Positions 1-20,136 of a stretch of 42,086 nt of DNA are shown piece by piece. The stretch comes from Gammaproteobacteria bacterium. GTDB lineage: Bacteria > Pseudomonadota > Gammaproteobacteria > Xanthomonadales > Marinicellaceae. Both the position numbers and the translations under genes were made by a program. The stretch is from positions 1 through 42,086 of the forward strand of contig JAJRQG010000095.1 in the NCBI GenBank assembly GCA_024280395.1, written 5' to 3'. Within the stretch, counting starts at the first letter, position 1. The number at the start of each line of letters is the position of its first letter. The notes beneath the pieces were generated by a model, which did not search any database, was not told the origin of the DNA, and saw only the letters and a program-made list of their open reading frames with translations.

Positions 1-290
1 ACTGCCATTGACCAAGCCGCTTCGGTAATTTCAGTTGCAGCATACAAACAATCAATCGGTGCAGAAATGACCAAACTGGCACCGCCTTTATATACTCTTG
101 AAGTGATTTCTTCTGATTCCCAATTCAAAGCATCAAGTAAATCACGACAATGATTTTTCCAAATAGTGATAACTTTGTCTTTGTCAATGTCATCAATATT
201 AACATCTAATATTGCACCCGCTTTGTTCCAGAATAAATTTGGCCCAGTTAAACGGCGGGAATCGGTTATTTGTAGTTTAATTTCTTTCAT
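1..290 (-). CDS. N-terminus of a cyanophycin-associated Mur-ligase-like protein (partial, runs off the window)
   Basis: An open frame starts with ATG at 290 and runs to the window edge, giving the first 96 residues. The protein opens MKEIKLQITDSRRLTGPNLF and continues with an acidic segment and a GGASLVISAP stretch. From memory, the DSRRLTGPNL opening matches Mur-ligase-type proteins encoded beside cphA in gammaproteobacteria; no catalytic motif is in view, so this rests on the N-terminus and context. It lies 133 bp downstream of cphA on the same strand and is probably the last gene of the cyanophycin transcript. A degenerate palindromic repeat sits in the gap. It could instead be a CphA2-like synthetase. 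The reading frame is very likely real; the family assignment is moderate. Confidence 0.55.
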   Translation of the reverse strand, partial: MKEIKLQITDSRRLTGPNLFWNKAGAILDVNIDDIDKDKVITIWKNHCRDLLDALNWESEEITSRVYKGGASLVISAPIDCLYAATEITEAAWSMA

Positions 291-318
291 GTATAGATCT
301 AGGTATTAATTTTTTAAA

Positions 319-402
319 ACTCATTTGGAACCGTGGCTTTAGTCATACATTGTATCTATCATTGATTAAAGCAGGACTAAAGTCCCGATTCCGATATGAG
401 TT
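319..402. repeat. Degenerate REPIN-like palindrome between cphA and the Mur-ligase-like gene
   Basis: The left arm (about 319-345, containing ggctttagtc) and the right arm (about 375-402, containing gactaaagtc and gatatgagtt) are imperfect inverted copies of one another. Both resemble the arms of the near-perfect element at 5900-5988: each has an outer actcat/atgagt end and an inner ctttagtc/gactaaag end. This is therefore a diverged second copy of a dispersed repeat. It lies between two co-directional genes and could act as an mRNA processing, attenuation or stability element. Confidence 0.6.
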
Positions 403-423
403 AACTCTGAAATTAATAAATTT

Positions 424-3231
424 TCAATCCCCATCTTCTTCAATACGCGCCAATCTCACGCCACGTTCATCTTTGATCAAATCCATCGATTCAATCAAGT
501 CTTTCTCGTTTTCATCGATGATTACACTTGATATATGTGTGTCATTTGATGGTTCACTTGGTTTTTGATTTTCGGGGTTGAAGCCAATGATCTGTTTCCA
601 GCTACGGGTAATGTCATCTCCAAAGATTAATAACAAATCGCCTTCTTGGGCATTTTGTAGGGCTCTATCTATGGCTTTTGTTTCATCAGCAATGATTAGA
701 GTTTGGTATTCCTTGACTCCTGATTCGATTAATTGTTGTTGTAGCATCAGTGGCACTTCGCGTTCATCGCGACCACGGCGGTTGTCGTCAGCTTTAAGAA
801 TGTAATAATCAAAATGACCTGCGGCTTCCTTTGCGATGGCACGGATGTCTTCATCTCTTCTATCACCAGGTGCTGCCAATACCACCGTTTTCTTGCCATT
901 GACTTCAAAACGATCAATGGTTTGGCAAACCACTTTAATCGCAGCAGGATTGTGGCCATAATCCAAAATCACTTTAAAGGCATGTTCGTCGTATTGATTC
1001 ATGCGACCCGGTGCTTGGAAGAATGTTGAATCAAATGTGCGCAAACCGTGTTTTATTTCTTCTAATTCTTTGTTCATTGAGTAAGCAAGGGCTGCAGCAA
1101 ACATGGCATTTTGCACATTGTGCGTGGCTTTGCCTTCTATGGTTGCAGGAATTAAATGTGTCCACAACAATGGAATATGAGCGCCATTGTCATAAATGGT
1201 AATCATATCGCCATTGATGCCTTGTTCTAAAACAAATGCCATGCCGCCTTGATTGATGTGTTCTTTGACCAATAAATGTCTTGGGTTCATGGTTACGTAA
1301 CAGACTTTTTTGGCCTTGGTATAATCGGCCATTTGTAAACACAAATGATCATCGGCATTTAGTACGGCCACATCTTTTGCCACTTCTACTACTACGCGTT
1401 TGGCTTCGGCCAATTGTTCTAAAGTGTTGATGCCTTTTATGCCCAAATGGTCGGATGAAATATTTAAGCAAGCCGATACATTGGTCGAGCCATAACCTAA
1501 ACCAGCACGGACAATTCCACCCCGTGCGGTTTCTAGTACTGCGATATCTACAGTTGGATCTCGCAATACAATATGTGAGGCCATTGGTCCTGTCATGTCA
1601 CCTTTAACGGTCAAACGGCCATCAATATAAACCCCTTCGGTTGCTGTGTTTCCAACTATGTGCCCACAAGATTTCAATATATGTGATAACATTCTTGCGG
1701 TGGTTGTTTTACCATTGGTACCTGTAATTGCAGCGACGGGAATGCGACTGGGTGAGCCTTCTGGAAATAGCATATCCATAACCTTGCCTGCCACATCACG
1801 TGGTTTTCCTTCAGAAGGTGCTACGTGCATTCTAAAACCTGGGGCTGCATTGACTTCACATATTCCGCCACCAATGTCTTTGTATGATTGTGATATGTCA
1901 TCGGTTAAAAAATCCACACCACCAACATCTAATCCAACTGCCATCACAGCCCGTTCTGCCATGGCTCGGTTATCAGGATGAACTTCATCTGTTACATCTA
2001 TGGCTGTTCCGCCCGTTGATAGGTTGGCCGTTGAGCGCAAATAAAAGACTTCTCCTTCTGGCAATACCGTATCTTGAGTGTGTCCGGCTTGTTCAATTAA
2101 TAATTTAGCTTGTCGATCAAATTCTAGATTGGTTAAGACTTTTTCATGTCCAACACCGCGTCTTGGATCAGAATTGACGATGTCAACCAGTTCAGCAATT
2201 GTATTATTTCCATCACCAATAACGTGCCCAGGAACACGTTTGGCTACTGCAACAAGCTCTCCATTAACCACCAACATTCTGTGGTCGTATCCAGTAATCA
2301 TGGATTCAATTAATATGGCGCGAGAATTCCCTTTTTCTCTGGCAAATTGGAATGCTGATTCAATTTCATTGTCTTCAGTAATATCAATGGTGATACCACG
2401 ACCATGATTTCCATCCAGTGGTTTGACCACAACAGGATAGCCCATGCGTCTAGCTATGCGTACGGCTTGTTGTTCAGAATAGACCAGTTCTTGTCTTGGC
2501 AGAGGCAGTCCTAAATCTTTGAGTAATTTATGTGTATCTTCTTTGTCACATGAAATTTCAACTGCAATGTGCGTGGTCTTTGAGGTAATGGTGGCTTGAA
2601 TGCGTTGTTGGTATTTTCCATGGCCAAATTGAACCAATGAATACTCGTTTAACCTCAACCAAGGAATATTTCGTTCTTCGGCTGCCTTGACAATTGATGC
2701 AGTTGATGGACCCAACTCTTTGCGTTGTGCAAATCGAATAAAGTCAGTTTTTTCTTCTTCAAAATAAAAATCACTGTCTATAGAATCCCGCAACTGCGAT
2801 TGTAAATTTTCGGTAAGTAAAGAGTACAATAACTGTCTGGCAATGCGGGCAGCTTCTAAACCAACATCGCGTTGTTTGTATTGAAAGACCATGTCGTAAC
2901 AACCGGCTTGCCCCTCAATTGAACGGGTTTTACCAAAAGTGACATCTGAACCGGCTATGTTTTGTAATTCTAAAATGGCATGTTCTAAAATATGGCCCAT
3001 CCATGTTCCACCATCTTCTTTTAAACGGCGAATAAACCCACCTTCAACACCATAAGAACAACCATGTTCTTGTAGGCCAGGAAGGGCTTGAATTAAACCA
3101 TTGATAAAGTTATTACCAATTTTTGCACTTGGCCATTCTTCTAATATGCCTAAATCCAGTTGTTGTCGAATGACAGGGAAGTGGGCATATAAGTTGGGCC
3201 CTACATAGACGTTAGTGCTTAAAATTTTCAT
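424..3231 (-). CDS. cphA: Cyanophycin synthetase CphA
   Basis: A 935-residue ligase that polymerises aspartate and arginine into cyanophycin (multi-L-arginyl-poly-L-aspartate), a cytoplasmic nitrogen and carbon store. The N-terminus MKILSTNVYVGPNLYAHFP is typical of CphA. The first ~160 residues form the N domain. An ATP-grasp domain follows (about 215-480; VVKPLDGNHGRGI, ICEVNAAPGFRMH) and adds Asp. A Mur-ligase domain follows that, with P-loop GTNGKTTTAR at about 499-508 and the GHNPAA region near the C-terminus; it adds Arg. Length slightly exceeds the usual 870-900 residues because of a short polar, acidic C-terminal tail. It lies 69 bp after the diguanylate cyclase gene on the same strand, in a cluster with cphB and iadA. 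No missing catalytic motif was noticed. Confidence 0.96.
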   Translation of the reverse strand: MKILSTNVYVGPNLYAHFPVIRQQLDLGILEEWPSAKIGNNFINGLIQALPGLQEHGCSYGVEGGFIRRLKEDGGTWMGHILEHAILELQNIAGSDVTFGKTRSIEGQAGCYDMVFQYKQRDVGLEAARIARQLLYSLLTENLQSQLRDSIDSDFYFEEEKTDFIRFAQRKELGPSTASIVKAAEERNIPWLRLNEYSLVQFGHGKYQQRIQATITSKTTHIAVEISCDKEDTHKLLKDLGLPLPRQELVYSEQQAVRIARRMGYPVVVKPLDGNHGRGITIDITEDNEIESAFQFAREKGNSRAILIESMITGYDHRMLVVNGELVAVAKRVPGHVIGDGNNTIAELVDIVNSDPRRGVGHEKVLTNLEFDRQAKLLIEQAGHTQDTVLPEGEVFYLRSTANLSTGGTAIDVTDEVHPDNRAMAERAVMAVGLDVGGVDFLTDDISQSYKDIGGGICEVNAAPGFRMHVAPSEGKPRDVAGKVMDMLFPEGSPSRIPVAAITGTNGKTTTARMLSHILKSCGHIVGNTATEGVYIDGRLTVKGDMTGPMASHIVLRDPTVDIAVLETARGGIVRAGLGYGSTNVSACLNISSDHLGIKGINTLEQLAEAKRVVVEVAKDVAVLNADDHLCLQMADYTKAKKVCYVTMNPRHLLVKEHINQGGMAFVLEQGINGDMITIYDNGAHIPLLWTHLIPATIEGKATHNVQNAMFAAALAYSMNKELEEIKHGLRTFDSTFFQAPGRMNQYDEHAFKVILDYGHNPAAIKVVCQTIDRFEVNGKKTVVLAAPGDRRDEDIRAIAKEAAGHFDYYILKADDNRRGRDEREVPLMLQQQLIESGVKEYQTLIIADETKAIDRALQNAQEGDLLLIFGDDITRSWKQIIGFNPENQKPSEPSNDTHISSVIIDENEKDLIESMDLIKDERGVRLARIEEDGD

Positions 3232-3270
3232 GTTTTAGTTTTCTCATTTATTTTTTACCTTTACTTTAGC

Positions 3271-3290
3271 TCTAGATACATCTAGATACA
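3271..3290. repeat. Two perfect tandem decamers upstream of cphA
   Basis: The decamer tctagataca occurs twice back to back in the 69-bp gap between the diguanylate cyclase gene and cphA, about 40 bp before the cphA start. Each unit contains the palindrome tctaga. It may be a short slip duplication or a small protein-binding repeat; nothing in the sequence proves a function. Confidence 0.4.
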
Positions 3291-3300
3291 TAAGGCTTTG

Positions 3301-5061
3301 TTACTTGTTTTTAATGTCTTTATTGGCAGAATATATACGGTTCTTGCCGTTTTGTTTAGCCTTGTACAATGACAAATCTGCATCTTTGTATAGGTCTTCC
3401 CAATTCTTGTGATGTTTGGTTCTTTCAGTTACTCCAATGCTTAATGTTACAAATTCATTAATTGTTGATGATTTATGTTTTATTTTCAATAAACTTAATT
3501 CTATCATTAATTCATCAAGTTGCGATAGTACTTCATTGTATGTATTCTCTGAGAAAATTATAGCAAACTCTTCCCCGCCAATTCTATAAAATTGAATCTT
3601 TATTTTCTGGGAGAAAGATTGAAATAATAATCCAATATTTTTCAGGCATTCATCACCTGTCACATGGCCATAAGTATCGTTGTATAACTTGAAAAAATCA
3701 ATATCAATAATTGCCAAGGATATCTTTACATTGCTTGTCCATAAGTCATCCATTGTCCTATTATAATGCCTTCGGTTGTTTAATCCTGTTAAGGAATCTG
3801 TGAGTATTGTTTTATTCAATTGCTTATTTAATAGATTCAATTTTTCAGTTCTTTCTTTAACCTTGTTTTCAAGAGTTTGTACAGATTTATGAATTTTATT
3901 TGCCATGGCTCCATAGGCTGAAGATAAATTGGATATTTCGCTGAATCGGCTTTTAGGAAGACTAATATCCCATTCGCCAGAGTAGATTTTTTTTGATGCC
4001 AGTTCTAAGTTTTTAATGGGCTTGAAGATAAATAACAAAACAAAGTATAAAATAAACAGGGTGACAATAACGATAAAAATTGTTATCCACATTTGTTTGG
4101 TTGCTTTAATTGATATTTGGTTGAGTAAGTTATCTTCTGAAACTACATCAATTAAAAAATACTGATTTTGTTCGTTTAAAAATATTTTTGATGCTTGGAT
4201 GATAAGTCCATTTTCAATCAATGTACTGTCGTCATTGATGATGATTTCTTTGATCTTCGCATAATCATTTGCTTGGACTTTTTTATATAGCTCTTGGTTG
4301 TTATTTTTTCCGTTTTCAAAGTTTCTGGCAATAATTTTATTGCCTCTATCCATTAAGAATAGAATACCTGGCTTTCCTTGTTTTAAGGATGTTAGGAGTT
4401 TCGATAAATCATTCAAAGTGTAATCAATGGCAACAACCCCTATTGCTTTATGGTTCTTTACGACTGCTTTTGAAGCACCCATACCATAGTTTCCACTAGA
4501 AAAATATTCATAAATAGGGTGCCATTCTAGCTTTGTAGAATGGATTGCTTGAGTAAACCATATTCTAGTACTTGCAAAAAATCCTTGTGTGATTCGTTGA
4601 TTGACATTTGCTTTGCTGGGGTCAATATAATCACTGTGTAACTCGCCAGTATTATTCGCCAGCGCAAACAATAAATCTTTCTCATTATTGGTTCTGAACA
4701 CACTAATATAATTGTTATTTATATCTGCAAAAGATAGGGTGGAAATCAATTCTTCTTGTAAGGCTATTTTCGTAAGAACAGTTTTAACTTGGTCTATGTT
4801 GTTTATATCAATATGAGAATGCTCAATTAAATCGGTGATTAATGAAACCGATTTTTCTATGTTTTTAAAATTGAACTCAAGGTATTTTAGTATTTCTTTA
4901 CTCTGAATTCTTTGGATTTCTATTATACTTTTTCTGGATTCTTTTATACTGTAATTCCAGTTTAAGTAGATGACTAGGAGTGAAGAAACAAGAATAAAAA
5001 AGGCAATAAAAAATATCAGCGCATATTTTAATGAAATCTTAAGTTTTTTATTGAATAACAT
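3301..5061 (-). CDS. Membrane diguanylate cyclase with periplasmic Cache-type sensor (GGDEF)
   Basis: A 586-residue inner-membrane protein predicted to make c-di-GMP from two GTP. Order of parts: cytoplasmic start, TM1 (about 12-33), a ~285-residue periplasmic region with a double-Cache-like layout, TM2 (about 322-345), a HAMP-like linker, a coiled coil (about 385-410) and a GGDEF domain from about 415. The active site is GGEEF at 495-499, so the cyclase looks competent. The position of the RxxD inhibitory site reads KIKI, so product inhibition through the I-site is probably absent. The ATG lies 2 nt after the cphB stop with no clear Shine-Dalgarno, which suggests translational coupling. cphA follows. 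Placement implies a regulatory link to cyanophycin turnover, but that is inference. Confidence 0.93.
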   Translation of the reverse strand: MLFNKKLKISLKYALIFFIAFFILVSSLLVIYLNWNYSIKESRKSIIEIQRIQSKEILKYLEFNFKNIEKSVSLITDLIEHSHIDINNIDQVKTVLTKIALQEELISTLSFADINNNYISVFRTNNEKDLLFALANNTGELHSDYIDPSKANVNQRITQGFFASTRIWFTQAIHSTKLEWHPIYEYFSSGNYGMGASKAVVKNHKAIGVVAIDYTLNDLSKLLTSLKQGKPGILFLMDRGNKIIARNFENGKNNNQELYKKVQANDYAKIKEIIINDDSTLIENGLIIQASKIFLNEQNQYFLIDVVSEDNLLNQISIKATKQMWITIFIVIVTLFILYFVLLFIFKPIKNLELASKKIYSGEWDISLPKSRFSEISNLSSAYGAMANKIHKSVQTLENKVKERTEKLNLLNKQLNKTILTDSLTGLNNRRHYNRTMDDLWTSNVKISLAIIDIDFFKLYNDTYGHVTGDECLKNIGLLFQSFSQKIKIQFYRIGGEEFAIIFSENTYNEVLSQLDELMIELSLLKIKHKSSTINEFVTLSIGVTERTKHHKNWEDLYKDADLSLYKAKQNGKNRIYSANKDIKNK

Positions 5062-5063
5062 TT

Positions 5064-5879
5064 TTAAGCAAATGCTTCACGTGTATTAATGTCGTATTTT
5101 GCGCCTTCTCCCAAGACATGAACAGTCATGCCAATCAAGGTTAGATTTTCACGGTGTCTGGCATCGTGCATGGATGAGTGGGTTAATCCTGCAGGGTCAA
5201 CCACTGTAATTGAGCCAGCACCGACCACTTCAAAAACACCTTGTGGGTTGATAAAAGCAGCGGTATCCTCATCAATACCAATACCTGATATAAATGGATT
5301 GTAAGATAAGGCTGTCATTAATCGTCCAATTCTATCGCGTTGTCTAAAGTGTTGGTCAACAATTAACTTATTCGTTAAGCCTAAACCTGGTGCCATGGTT
5401 GCACCGTCTTCTGTAGGTGTTGGTCCTGCCTTACCTCCAGCAATCATGTGTTCGGTAACGATTGCTGCACCCGCTGAAGTGCCTGCAACATGAATTCCTT
5501 GAGCATTCAATGAGCGAATTAATTTGGCTACAGGTGTTCCACCTAAGATGGTAGATAAACGCAATTGATTGCCGCCAGTAATAAAAATCCCGGTTGCACG
5601 TTTGAGCTTGCCTTGAATGCGTTCTTTAAAACAGTCTTCGCGTTCATCCACACTGATATACATGGCTTTACCACCCAACCCTTCAAAAATATCAACATAT
5701 CTAGGGCCAGTGTCTTCTAATTGAGAGGCTGTTGGAATGACTAAAATTTTGGCATTATTACCACCTGACAATTCCCAAAATCGACGCAATATAGTCATGT
5801 CGTTTTCTTTGTCTTCAGCTCCGCCAATTGGGATAATCCAACCGCGATCTATATTTTCAACTGCTTCTGCAGGGCACAT
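5064..5879 (-). CDS. cphB: Cyanophycinase CphB
   Basis: A 271-residue serine exopeptidase of family S51 that cleaves cyanophycin to beta-Asp-Arg dipeptides. The nucleophile motif is GTSAGAA with Ser135, the substrate-site motif GGNQLRL is at 102-108, and a conserved DQHF is at 175-178. Length equals that of characterised cyanophycinases. The start at 5879 is supported by a GGAG Shine-Dalgarno about 5 nt upstream on the minus strand. It lies after iadA, separated by a 108-bp gap filled with a REPIN-like palindrome, and directly precedes the diguanylate cyclase gene with a 2-nt gap. There is no signal peptide, so this is the intracellular form that mobilises the cell's own granules. Confidence 0.95.
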   Translation of the reverse strand: MCPAEAVENIDRGWIIPIGGAEDKENDMTILRRFWELSGGNNAKILVIPTASQLEDTGPRYVDIFEGLGGKAMYISVDEREDCFKERIQGKLKRATGIFITGGNQLRLSTILGGTPVAKLIRSLNAQGIHVAGTSAGAAIVTEHMIAGGKAGPTPTEDGATMAPGLGLTNKLIVDQHFRQRDRIGRLMTALSYNPFISGIGIDEDTAAFINPQGVFEVVGAGSITVVDPAGLTHSSMHDARHRENLTLIGMTVHVLGEGAKYDINTREAFA

Positions 5880-5899
5880 ATGTTCTCCAAATATTCAAT

Positions 5900-5988
5900 A
5901 CTCATATCGGGTAGTTGGCTTTAGTTAACCAATAAAACCATCGGTTTTATAAAATCATGTTGACTAAAGCCAACTACCCGATATGAGT
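5900..5988. repeat. REPIN-like palindrome between iadA and cphB
   Basis: Two perfectly complementary 26-bp arms (5900-5925 and 5963-5988) enclose 37 bp that contain a further hairpin, ataaaacc (5932-5939) with ggttttat (5943-5950). The arms contain GTAG followed by TTGGCTTTAGT, the GTAG-plus-stem form known for REP sequences mobilised by RAYT transposases, arranged as an inverted doublet. The right arm ends on the first plus-strand base of the iadA stop codon. A degenerate copy is at 319-402. The structure could protect or process the iadA-cphB transcript. No RAYT gene is in the window. Confidence 0.8.
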
Positions 5989-7154
5989 TATTTATGTTCA
6001 AAGCTACCAAATTTGATAGTCTTATAATTTTTTTGATGCCATTGTCCCAATACCATGACAGATTCTATTTTGTTTTCATTGTCCAATATGACTAAGTCAG
6101 CGTCTTTGCCAACTTTTATTTGGCCTTTGTTTTGTAATCGCAATAATTGTGCAACATTACTGGTAAAAGGAGCAATCACTTCTTTAAGTTTAAATCCTTC
6201 GTCCAATAATTCTTTGATGCAATCACTTAACAAGGTACAGCGACCATAATCTAAATGTAGCAACTCTCCTTGTTTATCAAAATGCGGTAAACAACCACCA
6301 CCATCAGAAGAGATGGTTAATTTACTTTGATCAAATCCGCCTTGCTGGTATTTTCTAAATGATTCTGCTGCTGAATATTCTTCAACACTGTCACTGGGTG
6401 GAAAAGCGGTGATGTCCATGTTAATACCACGTTTAGTGAGTTCACAGGCTTGTTCAAATAAAGGAATGTTGCGATTACAATGAGTTGGATTTAGCACTCT
6501 TGGTGGAATTTCTGTTTCATCCAATAGTTTTTCAAGCAAGTCTAATCCCCGCGTGCCATCGCCTAAGTGAAAGTGCAGGATTCCGGCTTTACCAGTCATT
6601 AAGCCCGCCACATGCACATCACCTGCAATACGCGCTATTTCATCAAAGGTGGGTTGTGAAGAACGGTGATCAGATATGGCCAATTCTCCAACGCCGATTA
6701 TGGGTTCAATATGCACCATGTCTTTGCGTACACAATCGGTCAAAGTATTTAAGGGTACGTGATAACCTCCTGTATAGCACCAAGCGCTTATACCTTCTTC
6801 GCGCAATGCATAAACTTGTGCTATTACAGAGGAAGTGTTTCTGGTGGTGTCATCAGTTCCTAAAAGTCCAACAACTGAAGTAACTCCTGCTTTTGTGTAT
6901 TGACTCAAATTAACCGCAGGTACTTTGGTTTTAAAACCTGCTTCGCCACCACCGCCCGTGATATGAGCATGTCCATCAATTAGGCCAGGAATTAATCTCT
7001 TGCCATCAAAATCTGTATCAGATGCCAATAAACTTTGATCAATTTCAATGACATCTTTGGAAATAGCAACTATCTTTCCTGCAGCAATCAATAGGTGGCA
7101 AATTCCTAATGGGGCGGGTGCATAAATTTCGACATTGCTAAGGCGGTGAATCAT
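5988..7154 (-). CDS. iadA: Isoaspartyl dipeptidase (beta-aspartyl peptidase), M38 family
   Basis: A 388-residue amidohydrolase that splits beta-Asp-X dipeptides. Next to cphB its substrate is most likely beta-Asp-Arg from cyanophycin, giving free Asp and Arg. Family features visible: PGLIDGHAHITGGGGE with the HxH metal ligands at about 67-69, the VGELAISDHR segment, HFHLGDG with a metal His, NPTHCNRN with a second metal His, and the catalytic Asp in SSDGGG. The amidohydrolase C-terminal strand KVGKDADLVILD is present. Length matches E. coli IadA (390). It is probably first in the cyanophycin operon. Upstream lie about 100 bp of AT-rich leader and then a MITE that separates it from the divergent oadG. 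Confidence 0.94.
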   Translation of the reverse strand: MIHRLSNVEIYAPAPLGICHLLIAAGKIVAISKDVIEIDQSLLASDTDFDGKRLIPGLIDGHAHITGGGGEAGFKTKVPAVNLSQYTKAGVTSVVGLLGTDDTTRNTSSVIAQVYALREEGISAWCYTGGYHVPLNTLTDCVRKDMVHIEPIIGVGELAISDHRSSQPTFDEIARIAGDVHVAGLMTGKAGILHFHLGDGTRGLDLLEKLLDETEIPPRVLNPTHCNRNIPLFEQACELTKRGINMDITAFPPSDSVEEYSAAESFRKYQQGGFDQSKLTISSDGGGCLPHFDKQGELLHLDYGRCTLLSDCIKELLDEGFKLKEVIAPFTSNVAQLLRLQNKGQIKVGKDADLVILDNENKIESVMVLGQWHQKNYKTIKFGSFEHK

Positions 7155-7260
7155 TGAAATAATTGTGAGTATTAGAAAAAGTTAATATTACAACAATGGT
7201 GGTTTTAACTCTAGTTATTAAACATAAAATATAAGGATGCGATTCAAACAATAATGCATA

Positions 7261-7419
7261 GAGACCTTTGCACAACTCGTGGAACGTGTTAAAAAGTTGC
7301 AAAAACCTCCACTCTGCGTTAAAAAATTCGCAAATAGCGAGTTATTTGGCTCATTTTTTGCCTTGATTGGAGCTTTTTTCATTCTTTTTTCCATCGTCCC
7401 AGAGTTATGCAAAGGTCTC
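7261..7419. mobile_element. MITE-like element, copy 1 (between iadA and oadG)
   Basis: A 159-bp non-coding element has inverted ends: GAGACCTTTGCACAACTC on the left and the complement of GAGACCTTTGCATAACTC on the right. It is flanked on both sides by the 5-bp direct repeat gcata (7256-7260 and 7420-7424), a target-site duplication. Its interior resembles the element at 19977-20136. The ends recall IS5-type terminal repeats, from memory. It holds no transposase, so it would need one in trans. It occupies nearly half of the 366-bp iadA/oadG divergent intergenic region. The rest of that region is AT-rich leader on each side. Confidence 0.85.
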
Positions 7420-7480
7420 GCATATTAATAAATCTCCAGTCAGTATGATTACTTTAACTGTTTTTTTTAATATGTTGAGA

Positions 7481-7486
7481 TATAAT
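7481..7486 (+). promoter_or_regulatory. Possible -10 box for oadGAB
   Basis: A perfect TATAAT hexamer lies 35 bp before the oadG start, just outside the MITE. No good -35 hexamer is visible at 16-18 bp, so the call is weak in this AT-rich setting. Confidence 0.3.
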
Positions 7487-7520
7487 ATTTCTCACTAATA
7501 TATGGTGCACAAAAATTAAT

Positions 7521-7781
7521 ATGCAAAGTATAGAAACTTCAACACAATTATTTTCACAAGCAGCAACTTTGATGGTTGTGGGCATGGTCTTTGTTTTTGG
7601 TTTTTTAAGTCTAATGATTTTGGTCATTAAATTTTTAATTACACCTTTGGCAAAACGGTTTCCAGATATTGAACCAGTTGTTAAAAAATCGACTACCGAT
7701 TCATCAAATGAAGAATCTGCTATCGTTGCTGCAATTACCATTGCAGTAACTAAATACCGCAAAAACACCACCAAACATTAA
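7521..7781 (+). CDS. oadG: Oxaloacetate decarboxylase gamma subunit
   Basis: An 86-residue single-span membrane protein. One hydrophobic helix covers about residues 15-40 ([20 protein letters not shown]), followed by a short polar cytoplasmic tail. This form and the position directly before oadA and oadB identify the small gamma subunit, which anchors and assembles the Na+-pumping oxaloacetate decarboxylase. The leader before ATG is A/T-rich without a clear Shine-Dalgarno. The gene ends 17 bp before oadA. The sequence itself is weakly conserved in this family, so context carries much of the call. Confidence 0.88.
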
Positions 7782-7798
7782 ATATTCTAGGAAAACAC

Positions 7799-9580
7799 AT
7801 GTCTGAACAAACACCTTCTAAAAAACCATTAGGAATTACTGAACTAGTCTTAAGAGATGCACACCAATCTTTACTCGCTACACGGATGCGTTTGGAAGAT
7901 ATGTTGCCGATTGCACCAGTGCTTGATGAAATTGGCTTTTGGTCAATTGAATCTTGGGGTGGAGCGACTTTTGATTCTTGTATTCGTTATTTGGGTGAAG
8001 ATCCTTGGGAACGCATACGTGAATTAAAAAAGCTTATGCCAAAGACCAAACAACAGATGTTATTTCGTGGTCAAAATATCTTAGGTTATCGCCATTATGC
8101 CGATGATTTAGTAGAGAAATTTGTTGAGCGAGCTTATGTCAATGGGGTTGAAGTCTTTAGAATTTTTGATGCAATGAATGACGTACGCAATATGCAGAGT
8201 GCCATTAAAGCCACCAATAAAGTGGGTGGTCACGCTCAAGGGACATTGAGTTATACTATAAGCCCAGTGCACAATTTACAAGGTTGGTTGACCATGGCAA
8301 AACAGCTTGAAGATATGGGTTCTGATTCTTTGTGTATTAAAGACATGGCAGGATTGTTGAAACCTTATGATGCCACAGAGTTGATTACTGAAATCAAAAA
8401 AGTAGTGGATATTCCTATTGCATTGCATTGTCATGCCACAACAGGATTGAGCATGGCGACCCACATGAAAGCCATTGATGCCGATATTGATGTGATTGAT
8501 ACAGCGATTTCATCCATGAGTATGACTTATGGGCACTCTCCAACTGAAACCATGATTGCAATTGTTGAGGGCACTGCCAGAGATACGGGACTTGATATCA
8601 ATAAACTAGAAGAAGTGGCTACTTATTTCCGTGAAGTGCGTAAAAAATATGCCAAATTTGAAGGCAGTTTACAGGGCATTGATGCACGAATTTTAACCGC
8701 ACAAGTACCAGGTGGAATGCTGACGAATATGGAAGGGCAATTAAAAGAGCAGGGTGCGGCTGATAAATTGGATGAGGTGTTAACTGAAATTCCTAAGGTG
8801 CGCAAAGATTTGGGTTTTATTCCTTTGGTCACACCAACTTCTCAAATTGTGGGTACACAGGCTGTATTGAATGTATTGACCGGCGAAAGATACAAGACTA
8901 TTACCAAAGAAACCGCAGGTGTGCTCAAAGGCGAATATGGTGCAGCGCCAGCTGAAGTTAATTTAGAATTGCAGAAGCGTGTTCTAGATGGTGCAGAAGT
9001 GGTGACATGTCGTCCTGCTGATTTGTTAAAACCCGAAGTGAAAAAACTAACCAAAGAGTTGAGAAAACTGGCAAAAGAAGAAGGCATTACCCTAGCAAAA
9101 GATGTGATTGATGATGTATTGACTTATGCTTTGTTTCCACAAATCGGTTTAAAGTTTTTGAAAAACAGGAACAACAAAGATGCCTTTGAATCTGTACCGC
9201 AAGCATCTGATGTGTTGCCTCAAGTTGCGCCGGTTTCTAATACAAGTTCAGTTGTTGAGAACTACTCAGTTAAAGTCGATGGAAAAGTGTACGAAGTTGA
9301 AGTAGGTCCTTCTGGTGCAGTTAGTCAAGTTACGCAAAGCCAAAATGTTGCGACACCTGCCGCATCGGCAGAAACATTAAACGCGCCATTGGCAGGTAAT
9401 ATTTTCAAAGTGAATGTTTCGGTAGGTGATCAAATATCAGAAGGCGATGTGGTGATTATTATGGAAGCCATGAAGATGGAAACAGAAATTCAATCAACAT
9501 TCACCGGCACAGTTTCGTCGGTAGATATCAAAGAAGGCGACAATGTAAAAGTTGGTGAGCCTTTGTTGAGTATAGGTTAA
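7799..9580 (+). CDS. oadA: Oxaloacetate decarboxylase alpha subunit (biotin-carboxyltransferase)
   Basis: A 593-residue cytoplasmic subunit that transfers the C4 carboxyl of oxaloacetate to biotin, yielding pyruvate. The N-terminal carboxyltransferase TIM barrel (about 1-300) shows [12 protein letters not shown] and metal-site HCHATTG. A conserved middle domain ends near 460, followed by a linker rich in Ala, Pro, Ser and Val. The C-terminal biotinyl domain carries the motif EAMKMET with biotinyl Lys559. An AGGA Shine-Dalgarno at 7789-7792, 6 nt before ATG, supports the start. It is the middle gene of oadG-oadA-oadB, the usual order. Some glutaconyl- or methylmalonyl-CoA decarboxylases share the layout, but the barrel is of OadA type. 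Confidence 0.96.
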
Positions 9581-17805: not shown

Positions 17806-19794
17806 TTATCCTTCAATATATTTTAGATCAGATACTGGTGCTTGAATGAAATTGCCTTGTATCAAATCGGCATTAAGTGTCCAAATATCGGCTGTTAAAC
17901 CAGCACTATCAATATTGGGTATCATTAATTTATATCCCAAGTTTTGTGCTTTTTTTATGACATTGCCAATATACTCTGGGTTACTCTTGTGCAATGAGTT
18001 TGATTCTAAATCAAATGGCTTTACTCTAATCCAATGGACATTCAGGGCTTTTGCGATACTCCAAGCAGTTTTTGATGAATCAAACTCTGACAAACACAAA
18101 GTGACGTTGGCTTGTCGTAGCTCTTTACCCAATTCAAAAAGTAAGCTAGTATGCTCCTCTACCATATCCTGTCTAAATTGAAATACCAGTCTATTTTTAG
18201 GTAAATTTTGTGATCGGATATATTTAATTATATGAGTTTTATAGGTTTCAGATTCATAATCTGCTATGAGTTGATTAATTAGAATATGCCTTTGAATGTC
18301 TTTATCTTCACCAATTTTGATCATTTCAATAGCATGTTCTAGGGTGAATCTGTCAAGAAGTTTCAATAAACCAGTTTGGTTGGCAACTTGCAAATAATCT
18401 TTGGTTCTTAATTCTTTTCCACTTTTGTCAATTACTCTAAGTAACAATTGAAAAATTTCCAATTTTTCATTCTTAGTGCTTAAAATTGATTGATATCTCC
18501 AATTAAAACATTTTTCCCTAATGGCATTTTCCAGTTTGGTTTTGATCAGGTAAAAGTGTTTTTGATCATCTCCTTCAGAAATAAAAATCGTATCTTGGCT
18601 GGTTCCCGAGTTCAACAATAGCCTTTCTGCATCATAGAACAGTAATTCTTTATTGGACTTTTTCGGAACGTCAGTTAAAACGAAAGGCTTTATAGTTACA
18701 TTAAAATCTTTATCTTGTGAAGTAAAATGATGGTTGTTTATCCATTGGTGTATTTTTGTAATCCATTTTTCAATCTCTTCTCGAGGGAAATTGTTACTGG
18801 TAAAAGCATAGATTCCTTCAGTGATTGAATAAATAGAGGAAAAACTGAGATTGGAAAGTGGTAATAAGCTTATAAATTTATCACTGAAATTTTTAAAACC
18901 AGACAATCCGATCTTTTTCTGTAAAATAGTTTTGTTGTTGATTTTTAGCCAAACAACCGAAGCAGTAGGGTTGTTCGCATTGTCAGCGATGAAAGATATG
19001 ATTTCATCGTGTTCTTTGTCTTCAATGTGGTGATAACTTTGTTTTTTGTCATTTATTTTGGGTTGTATACCGATAAAGTGAAAGTGATTAGATTGAACTT
19101 TTTGGAGTATTTTTGAAACAATAGTTTGATGTTTAATTGGCTTAACAAAAATTTCACAGGCTCCAACATCAATAATTTTTTGTTTTATTCTATTGGGTGA
19201 ATCAGAGCTTATAAAGAAAATGGGTAAACTTAAATTGTCAGGAATATTTTTTATCAATTTAACTAATTCGTCACCAGCAATTTCGGTTAAATCAATCATC
19301 ACCAGCAATAAATCTGGTTGATAAAATTTAATGGGTTCAATGATTTCAACATTGGATTGAATGGTTTTTATATTAAAACCAGATTGTTCTAAATCCTTTT
19401 CATAATTTAACCCTTCTATAGTGTGATCATCGATTATTAAAATCTTGTAGTTTGCATGAAAAACCCAACTCATGAATTCGTGAATTTCCAAGTTGGCAAA
19501 AATATTGGCTGTTATACTTTCAATACCCCGGCACAATAGATCGTAGTCTTGTTGGTCATTTATATCTTCATTGATGCTAATGATTTTAGTTAAAGGATTA
19601 TTTTGAATTATTGTATCTAATAATTTAGCATGATCATCCACAAAATGTCTGTCGATTAATAAGACATTAGGAGGGTTTCTACCCAAGCAATTTTGTAAAT
19701 CGTCTATTTTTAAGGTTTGAATGTAACCTGAAAGATGTTGATCAAGAGAAGTTATTACATTTGAAAGTGAATATAAATTTGATATTTTTTCCAT
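17806..19794 (-). CDS. Response regulator with degenerate EAL domain (probable c-di-GMP receptor or protein-interaction module)
   Basis: A 662-residue soluble protein. Residues 1-110 look like a degenerate receiver domain. Residues about 117-235 form a normal receiver with Asp122/Asp123, phospho-acceptor Asp168 (VMIDLTE) and the VKPI lysine. The middle (about 255-415) has the size of a GGDEF domain but no GGDEF motif. The C-terminus is an EAL fold whose catalytic residues are gone: the E-x-L position reads QLL with Gln449, the second metal Glu lies in FQFRQDM, and DDFG is replaced by SEFD. The late QGNFIQAPVSDL segment is preserved. Such proteins, for example FimX or LapD, act by binding rather than hydrolysis. 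It is transcribed toward DUF2238 and nth. The partner kinase is unknown. Confidence 0.85.
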   Translation of the reverse strand: MEKISNLYSLSNVITSLDQHLSGYIQTLKIDDLQNCLGRNPPNVLLIDRHFVDDHAKLLDTIIQNNPLTKIISINEDINDQQDYDLLCRGIESITANIFANLEIHEFMSWVFHANYKILIIDDHTIEGLNYEKDLEQSGFNIKTIQSNVEIIEPIKFYQPDLLLVMIDLTEIAGDELVKLIKNIPDNLSLPIFFISSDSPNRIKQKIIDVGACEIFVKPIKHQTIVSKILQKVQSNHFHFIGIQPKINDKKQSYHHIEDKEHDEIISFIADNANNPTASVVWLKINNKTILQKKIGLSGFKNFSDKFISLLPLSNLSFSSIYSITEGIYAFTSNNFPREEIEKWITKIHQWINNHHFTSQDKDFNVTIKPFVLTDVPKKSNKELLFYDAERLLLNSGTSQDTIFISEGDDQKHFYLIKTKLENAIREKCFNWRYQSILSTKNEKLEIFQLLLRVIDKSGKELRTKDYLQVANQTGLLKLLDRFTLEHAIEMIKIGEDKDIQRHILINQLIADYESETYKTHIIKYIRSQNLPKNRLVFQFRQDMVEEHTSLLFELGKELRQANVTLCLSEFDSSKTAWSIAKALNVHWIRVKPFDLESNSLHKSNPEYIGNVIKKAQNLGYKLMIPNIDSAGLTADIWTLNADLIQGNFIQAPVSDLKYIEG

Positions 19795-19976
19795 GGATAT
19801 ACCAATATTATGACCTTATTATTGCTTATATTATTACAGTAGTTGATTAAAAAAGCTAAGAGAATCTATCTAAAACAGCTGTTTCTAAATGAATTTAGCT
19901 ATTTCTATACAATGATGAGATTTTGGTTAGAAAAATTGTCAGTATCAATCAGATGATAGCAAGTTATTTATTAATG
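19795..19976 (-). promoter_or_regulatory. Leader of the EAL-regulator gene, with a 12-bp palindrome
   Basis: These 182 AT-rich bases separate the regulator gene from the MITE. They hold a perfect palindrome, AAACAGCTGTTT (19873-19884), a plausible operator for a dimeric regulator, and presumably the promoter for the regulator-DUF2238-nth unit. No open frame or RNA gene was seen. Confidence 0.3.
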
Positions 19977-20136
19977 GAGACCTTTGCATAACTATGATGA
20001 CGAGTAAAAAATGATTAAATTCTCCAACTTATCGTTGAAAATCTGGCCAATAGCCAGCTTATTACCTGCAATTTTCGCCTCAATTTGGCAAATTTTCTTT
20101 ATTTTTTCTTTCGCCATATAGCTATGCAATGGTCTC
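19977..20136. mobile_element. MITE-like element, copy 2 (inserted in the rnfE stop codon)
   Basis: A 160-bp element with ends GAGACCTTTGCATAACTAT and the complement of GAGACCATTGCATAGCTAT (17 of 19 matching). It is flanked by the 5-bp duplication taatg (19972-19976 and 20137-20141). Its interior shares blocks with copy 1 at 7261-7419. The last base of the element supplies the G of the rnfE TAG stop. It separates the rnf operon from the regulator-DUF2238-nth group and may contribute a hairpin at the end of the rnf message. No transposase is encoded. Confidence 0.87.

Follow-up and report, generated by a model that had tools for sequence, protein, structure and literature searches.

Which role could a diguanylate cyclase gene play inside a cyanophycin operon? 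This question is raised by contig JAJRQG010000095.1 of a gammaproteobacterium of the family Marinicellaceae (assembly GCA_024280395.1), of which the whole stretch of 42,086 nucleotides (nt) was analysed and is called the window here. On its minus strand a cyclase gene, named dgc in this work, lies between the cyanophycinase gene cphB and the cyanophycin synthetase gene cphA. Amino acids are known cues for signalling by cyclic di-guanosine monophosphate (c-di-GMP) and cyanophycin is a store of arginine and aspartate; Dgc, coupled to cphB and with a predicted amino acid pocket, would be a concrete point, open to experiment, at which the nitrogen store and signalling on lifestyle meet. The explanation we favour, with a probability of about one half, is that expression of the operon sets the amount of the cyclase and amino acids outside the cell its activity, and that the c-di-GMP produced acts on lifestyle and not on the granule enzymes. 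The kind of protein is known, its context within a cyanophycin operon is new. The features on which this explanation is built are as follows:

5064..5879, minus strand: cphB, cyanophycinase of 271 amino acids (TIGR02069, 248.4 bits, cut-off 126.6)
5059..5066, minus strand: coupling junction consisting of the cphB stop codon TAA, 2 nt and the dgc start codon ATG
3301..5061, minus strand: dgc, diguanylate cyclase of 586 amino acids with dCache_1 (carrying an amino acid sensor motif), HAMP-like and GGDEF parts
4423..4581, minus strand: DNA of residues 161-213 of Dgc, spanning the ligand motif (coordinates derived from residue numbers)
3565..3579, minus strand: GGEEF active site, residues 495-499 of Dgc (coordinates derived from residue numbers)
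424..3231, minus strand: cphA, cyanophycin synthetase of 935 amino acids (TIGR02068, 1138.8 bits, cut-off 850)

An earlier note on this DNA, made from the letters alone, had described a Cache-HAMP-GGDEF protein with an intact GGEEF site encoded 2 nt behind cphB. The spacing was confirmed from the stop codon of cphB and the start codon of dgc, and the GGDEF protein between cphB and cphA from the open reading frames and PF00990; Cache and HAMP are found only below the curated cut-offs. A gap of 69 nt separates dgc from cphA, and none of the terminator-like sites listed for the minus strand falls within it. A second genome of the genus, G009, carries an orthologue of dgc with 59% identity, likewise between cphB and cphA, and there the ATG of dgc and the TAA of cphB share one base (1-nt overlap). 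The two cphB-dgc junctions differ in their letters, and both display a geometry compatible with translational coupling. Co-translation with cphB, as proposed in the earlier note, gains from the presence of this geometry in both genomes carrying dgc, and the genes would probably be transcribed as a single unit. By eye no clear Shine-Dalgarno sequence was seen ahead of the dgc start in the window or in G009, and a promoter scan of positions 1-8000 was uninformative (29 sites observed, 28.9 expected).

Dgc itself is predicted to be a membrane-bound diguanylate cyclase of ordinary appearance and known architecture. Its GGDEF domain reaches 123 bits with PF00990 (Pfam cut-off 23.8) and the GG[DE]EF site is intact. 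The RxxD product-inhibition site is common in GGDEF cyclases but does not define them; upstream of GGEEF it is absent, the two orthologues having KIKI and NDAT instead. Hydropathy windows at residues 6-37 and 320-352 put the sensor between two membrane segments, on the extracytoplasmic side. The dCache_1 profile PF02743 scores 38.2 bits (E 1.5e-9) below its curated cut-off of 45, and the HAMP profile 17.4 bits below a cut-off of 25; L068 and L071, two distant relatives of Cache-GGDEF type, exceed the HAMP cut-off. Further support for the Cache assignment comes from the ligand motif described below, from phmmer matches over the ligand region to Tlp3 (E 2.1e-5) and PctC (E 0.011), and from Foldseek. 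Every match that Foldseek lists for Dgc is a dCache domain, the best having an E of 1.4e-9, and the list includes CtaA, Tlp3 and PctA, all of them receptors of amino acids; the comparison was made on a weak model with a mean predicted local distance difference test score (pLDDT) of 58.6 and a predicted template modelling score of 0.56.

What the sensor may bind is suggested by the dCache_1AA motif, [YFWL]x4[RK]xW[YFW]x13-17[YFW]x27-34D, as given in PMC11237719. The periplasmic domain of Dgc matches every position (F161, R166, W168, F169, Y184 and D213), and the G009 orthologue likewise has all six. The motif was sought in 3,222 open frames (150 amino acids or longer) from 120 cph loci, whole window included, and was met in these two proteins only. 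Of 20,000 shuffled sensor sequences 11 matched, a number that speaks to chance and not to descent. By motif spacing R166 and D213 correspond to R126 and D173 of PctA. Identity between Dgc and its orthologue is unevenly distributed: it reaches 79% in the pocket segment (residues 155-220) and 80% in the HAMP-like part, but drops to 55% over the GGDEF domain and to 43% over residues 221-322. A ratio of non-synonymous to synonymous changes was not obtainable for dgc; since synonymous sites are saturated, selection is argued from this regional pattern alone. When five genomes were searched with PF02743, the genome of the window (G000) and G009 yielded one dCache_1 match each, both being the Dgc proteins, with no further one in either; three matches were found in G007 and none in G010 or G006. 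The motif strengthens the idea, put forward as a guess in the earlier note, that the ligand is an amino acid, and Dgc is predicted to sense a free L-amino acid outside the cell. Since a hydropathy scan of CphB gave no transmembrane window and the sensor lies between membrane segments, we infer that, if CphB is cytoplasmic, it would read outside amino acids and not granule products directly.

The favoured explanation would then run as follows. Dgc would be a diguanylate cyclase anchored in the membrane, with a dCache_1 domain in the periplasm that binds a free L-amino acid, and its gene was presumably captured by the cyanophycin operon; coupling to cphB would let the amount of cyclase track expression of the nitrogen-storage genes, and amino acids outside the cell would modulate its activity in either an activating or an inhibiting sense. 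The c-di-GMP made would feed into the usual lifestyle signalling and so act on attachment or motility, with no direct control of the cyanophycin enzymes. Pfam found no PilZ domain in CphA, CphB or IadA, the isoaspartyl dipeptidase encoded upstream, and Rfam gave no c-di-GMP riboswitch match at the gathering threshold within the window; the simplest target is therefore the general c-di-GMP network of the cell. Present in the cyanophycin operon of two species of one genus, dgc may tie nitrogen storage to lifestyle decisions.

Cyclases with comparable sensors have been described. STM1987 of Salmonella is a dCache_1 diguanylate cyclase activated by L-Arg, and SpdE of Aeromonas veronii is a dCache_1 cyclase inhibited by Pro, Val and Ile (PMC8846402). 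By description only, STM1987 resembles Dgc in joining a dCache_1 sensor to cyclase output, and its cue arginine is a building block of cyanophycin; unlike Dgc it also requires the periplasmic arginine-binding protein ArtI, and the consulted part of that paper does not mention a cyanophycin operon for it. SpdE, again likened by description, shares the sensor on a cyclase and the ligand class predicted for Dgc, but was described there for chemokinesis. The solved dCache receptors PctC, Tlp3, CtaA and PctA have the sensor fold that is predicted for Dgc, and the motif positions of PctC align with those of Dgc; in contrast to Dgc they are chemoreceptors and not cyclases. As for the operon, a cluster of iadA, cphB and cphA as in the window is described for Leucothrix mucor in PMC10206079, the main text of which contains neither the word GGDEF nor diguanylate.

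Several observations weigh against the favoured explanation, first of all the distribution of dgc. In the genus, 9 of the 11 genomes have a cphB match. The two drafts without one (G001, G005) were excluded from the count of junctions, as was G002, whose contig ends 469 nt past cphB without dgc. Eight cphB-cphA junctions were seen, counting that of the window, and only two hold dgc; in the other six (G003, G004, G006, G007, G008, G010) 57-76 nt separate the end of the cphB match from cphA, stop codon included, with no intervening gene. The earlier note had named absence from close relatives as evidence against its proposal, and the link is indeed not obligatory. These relatives, having the cph operon without dgc, provide a natural control.

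The wider survey covered 120 cph loci, of which 111 came from the order, where 110 of 398 genomes matched at E <= 1e-60, and nine from a search of the phylum, in which 11 of 398 genomes matched at E <= 1e-40 and a second, weaker cphB match of G060 was left out. These searches scored a limited number of first-look candidates per genome and may miss copies. In 104 loci cphA follows cphB on the same strand within 6 kb, and 102 of these lack a GGDEF gene in between; the window and G009 are the only two that have one. Given two of 104 surveyed and two of eight genus junctions, a widespread GGDEF-cph neighbourhood, which the earlier note had suggested looking for, was rejected. GGDEF genes were detected with a profile built from 19 domains and not with that of Pfam. 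A separate contig scan with two peptide patterns gave one locus and is not a census. When residues 1-337, which include the sensor, were compared with 299 genomes of the order, seven had matches, only G000 and G009 over nearly the whole query. The sensor alone matched in 18 of 369 genomes of the class, and among the matches listed all except the window's own showed 21-32% identity.

The remaining adverse observations concern the ligand and the history of the locus. The order and class searches gave 19 distant sensor relatives, and in 15 of them the longest open frame of the locus has the motif, which therefore in part reflects common descent. A Pfam scan of five of the 19 showed L068 and L071 to be Cache-HAMP-GGDEF proteins, and found an adenylate/guanylate cyclase domain in L223 and L224 and a SpoIIE domain in L070. 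PctC and Tlp3 have an Asp two positions past the motif aromatic where Dgc has Tyr186, and what Foldseek ranks first is TlpQ, a receptor of histamine and not of amino acids. The AlphaFold model, made from two sequences, has a pLDDT below 50 in parts of the pocket region. Moreover, the gene trees conflict, with three different placings. In the cphA and cphB trees G000 and the lineage without dgc form a group that excludes G009 (support 90/94 and 93/93), in the iadA tree G009 joins G000 and G002 and the lineage without dgc stands apart (85/93), and in the rpoB tree G009 stands beside that lineage (95/96), where the placing of G000 is open. This pattern fits one gain followed by loss or an exchange of the locus between species; two independent captures of dgc into the same slot seem less likely. 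The low G+C content of dgc (30%, as compared to 40-43% in the window neighbours) was rejected as a sign of foreign origin, third-position G+C being alike (0.30 and 0.30-0.33).

The strongest rival follows from this distribution: dgc could be a passenger, recombined into the operon and tolerated there, which senses amino acids for general purposes without any functional tie to cyanophycin. The many junctions without dgc agree with it, and the genome of the window holds 28 matches to Dgc at E <= 0.001, those listed being mostly to the GGDEF part, and with so many it would be no surprise that one of them inserted somewhere. However, the same slot has been kept in two genomes although the synonymous sites of dgc are saturated, the coupling to cphB exists in both despite different junction letters, and the pocket segment is conserved in what is the only dCache_1 match of either genome. 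We consider this rival a serious contender and yet doubtful.

An independent objection concerns the cue. The sensor might bind another small molecule of the dCache_1 repertoire, such as an amine, a purine, autoinducer-2 (AI-2) or an organic acid. Foldseek lists the amine receptors PctD and PacA besides its top match TlpQ, Tyr186 replaces the Asp of PctC and Tlp3, and both PctA and TlpQ bind AI-2 through their dCache domains (PMC7584622). The positions of R166 and D213 relative to the PctA residues, inferred from spacing as above, speak against such a ligand, which we regard as unlikely.

A more ambitious version of the favoured explanation would make dgc part of an amino-acid-gated c-di-GMP module in the storage operon. 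Outside amino acids, perhaps arginine, would set local c-di-GMP, made by a cyclase whose level the storage genes determine, and thereby steer cyanophycin turnover, so that storage and the decision between sessile and motile life would be placed in one transcript. We think this improbable. The earlier note had further considered that granule breakdown and c-di-GMP synthesis might rise together; since cphA follows dgc in the same orientation, expression of the gene for synthesis would increase along with that of the gene for breakdown. Its author knew of no described system in which c-di-GMP controls cyanophycin. In the literature searched, outside of which most subscription papers lie, we likewise found no link among the papers listed, which does not establish absence from print; PMC5670224 and PMC2654016 contain both terms, with no link between them in the parts consulted. 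The system put forward in that note, in which c-di-GMP made by Dgc directly controls synthesis or breakdown of cyanophycin, could appeal to operon membership and the coupling geometry, but is the least probable of the readings given the missing PilZ domain and riboswitch, the predominance in the survey of cph operons without dgc and the lack of a linking paper in that literature; no evidence for such control emerged in this analysis, and the interpretation of the earlier note is overall partly supported.

Upstream of cphB two more features belong to the locus:

5988..7154, minus strand: iadA, isoaspartyl dipeptidase of 388 amino acids (TIGR01975, 399.4 bits, cut-off 331.25)
5893..5993, no strand assigned: dispersed palindromic repeat in the iadA-cphB gap, a possible transcript break (repeat matches and a terminator-like site)

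The minus-strand order is iadA, cphB, dgc, cphA, as read from the open reading frames of the window. With cphA, cphB and a dipeptidase gene adjacent and all above the NCBI curated cut-offs, the locus qualifies as a cyanophycin gene cluster; iadA, upstream on the same strand, was not mentioned in the earlier note. Most of the iadA-cphB gap is occupied by the repeat, which has 85 matches in its own genome (both strands and part copies counted). As the repeat contains a minus-strand terminator-like site at 5974-5959, iadA may be on a transcript apart from cphB, a further point against the single operon assumed above. The same repeat was observed in other genomes of the genus, with 30 matches in G010, 18 in G006 and 14 in G008. 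A 171-base element with inverted ends, resembling a miniature inverted-repeat transposable element, is located at 7255-7425 and 19974-20136 of the window and has 13 matches in its own genome (both strands counted).

About 13 kb from dgc, at 17806-19794, the window encodes an EAL-domain response regulator that may be a phosphodiesterase of c-di-GMP. Many relatives carry a second ligase-like gene after cphA (for example at 12727-13845 in L036) that shares about 33% identity with the Mur-ligase part of cphA; the window contig stops short of the corresponding place.

A general enrichment of GGDEF genes near cph loci was also rejected: besides the two coupled genes they occur in at least 2 of 102 loci with cphA downstream (L047 and L202) and in at least 5 of 16 without, these counts being lower bounds where contig ends left the fetched stretches short. 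The latter five all belong to one family, f11, and have one GGDEF neighbour protein in common. In this family a cphB relative without cphA is found near the conserved GGDEF protein in five of seven loci (L194, L197, L198, L199 and L200), the contigs of the other two being short. By eye only, the protein has PAS and EAL parts, and it appears adjacent to the cphB relative in L197-L200. Family f11 possibly represents an independent tie between a c-di-GMP enzyme and a cyanophycinase.
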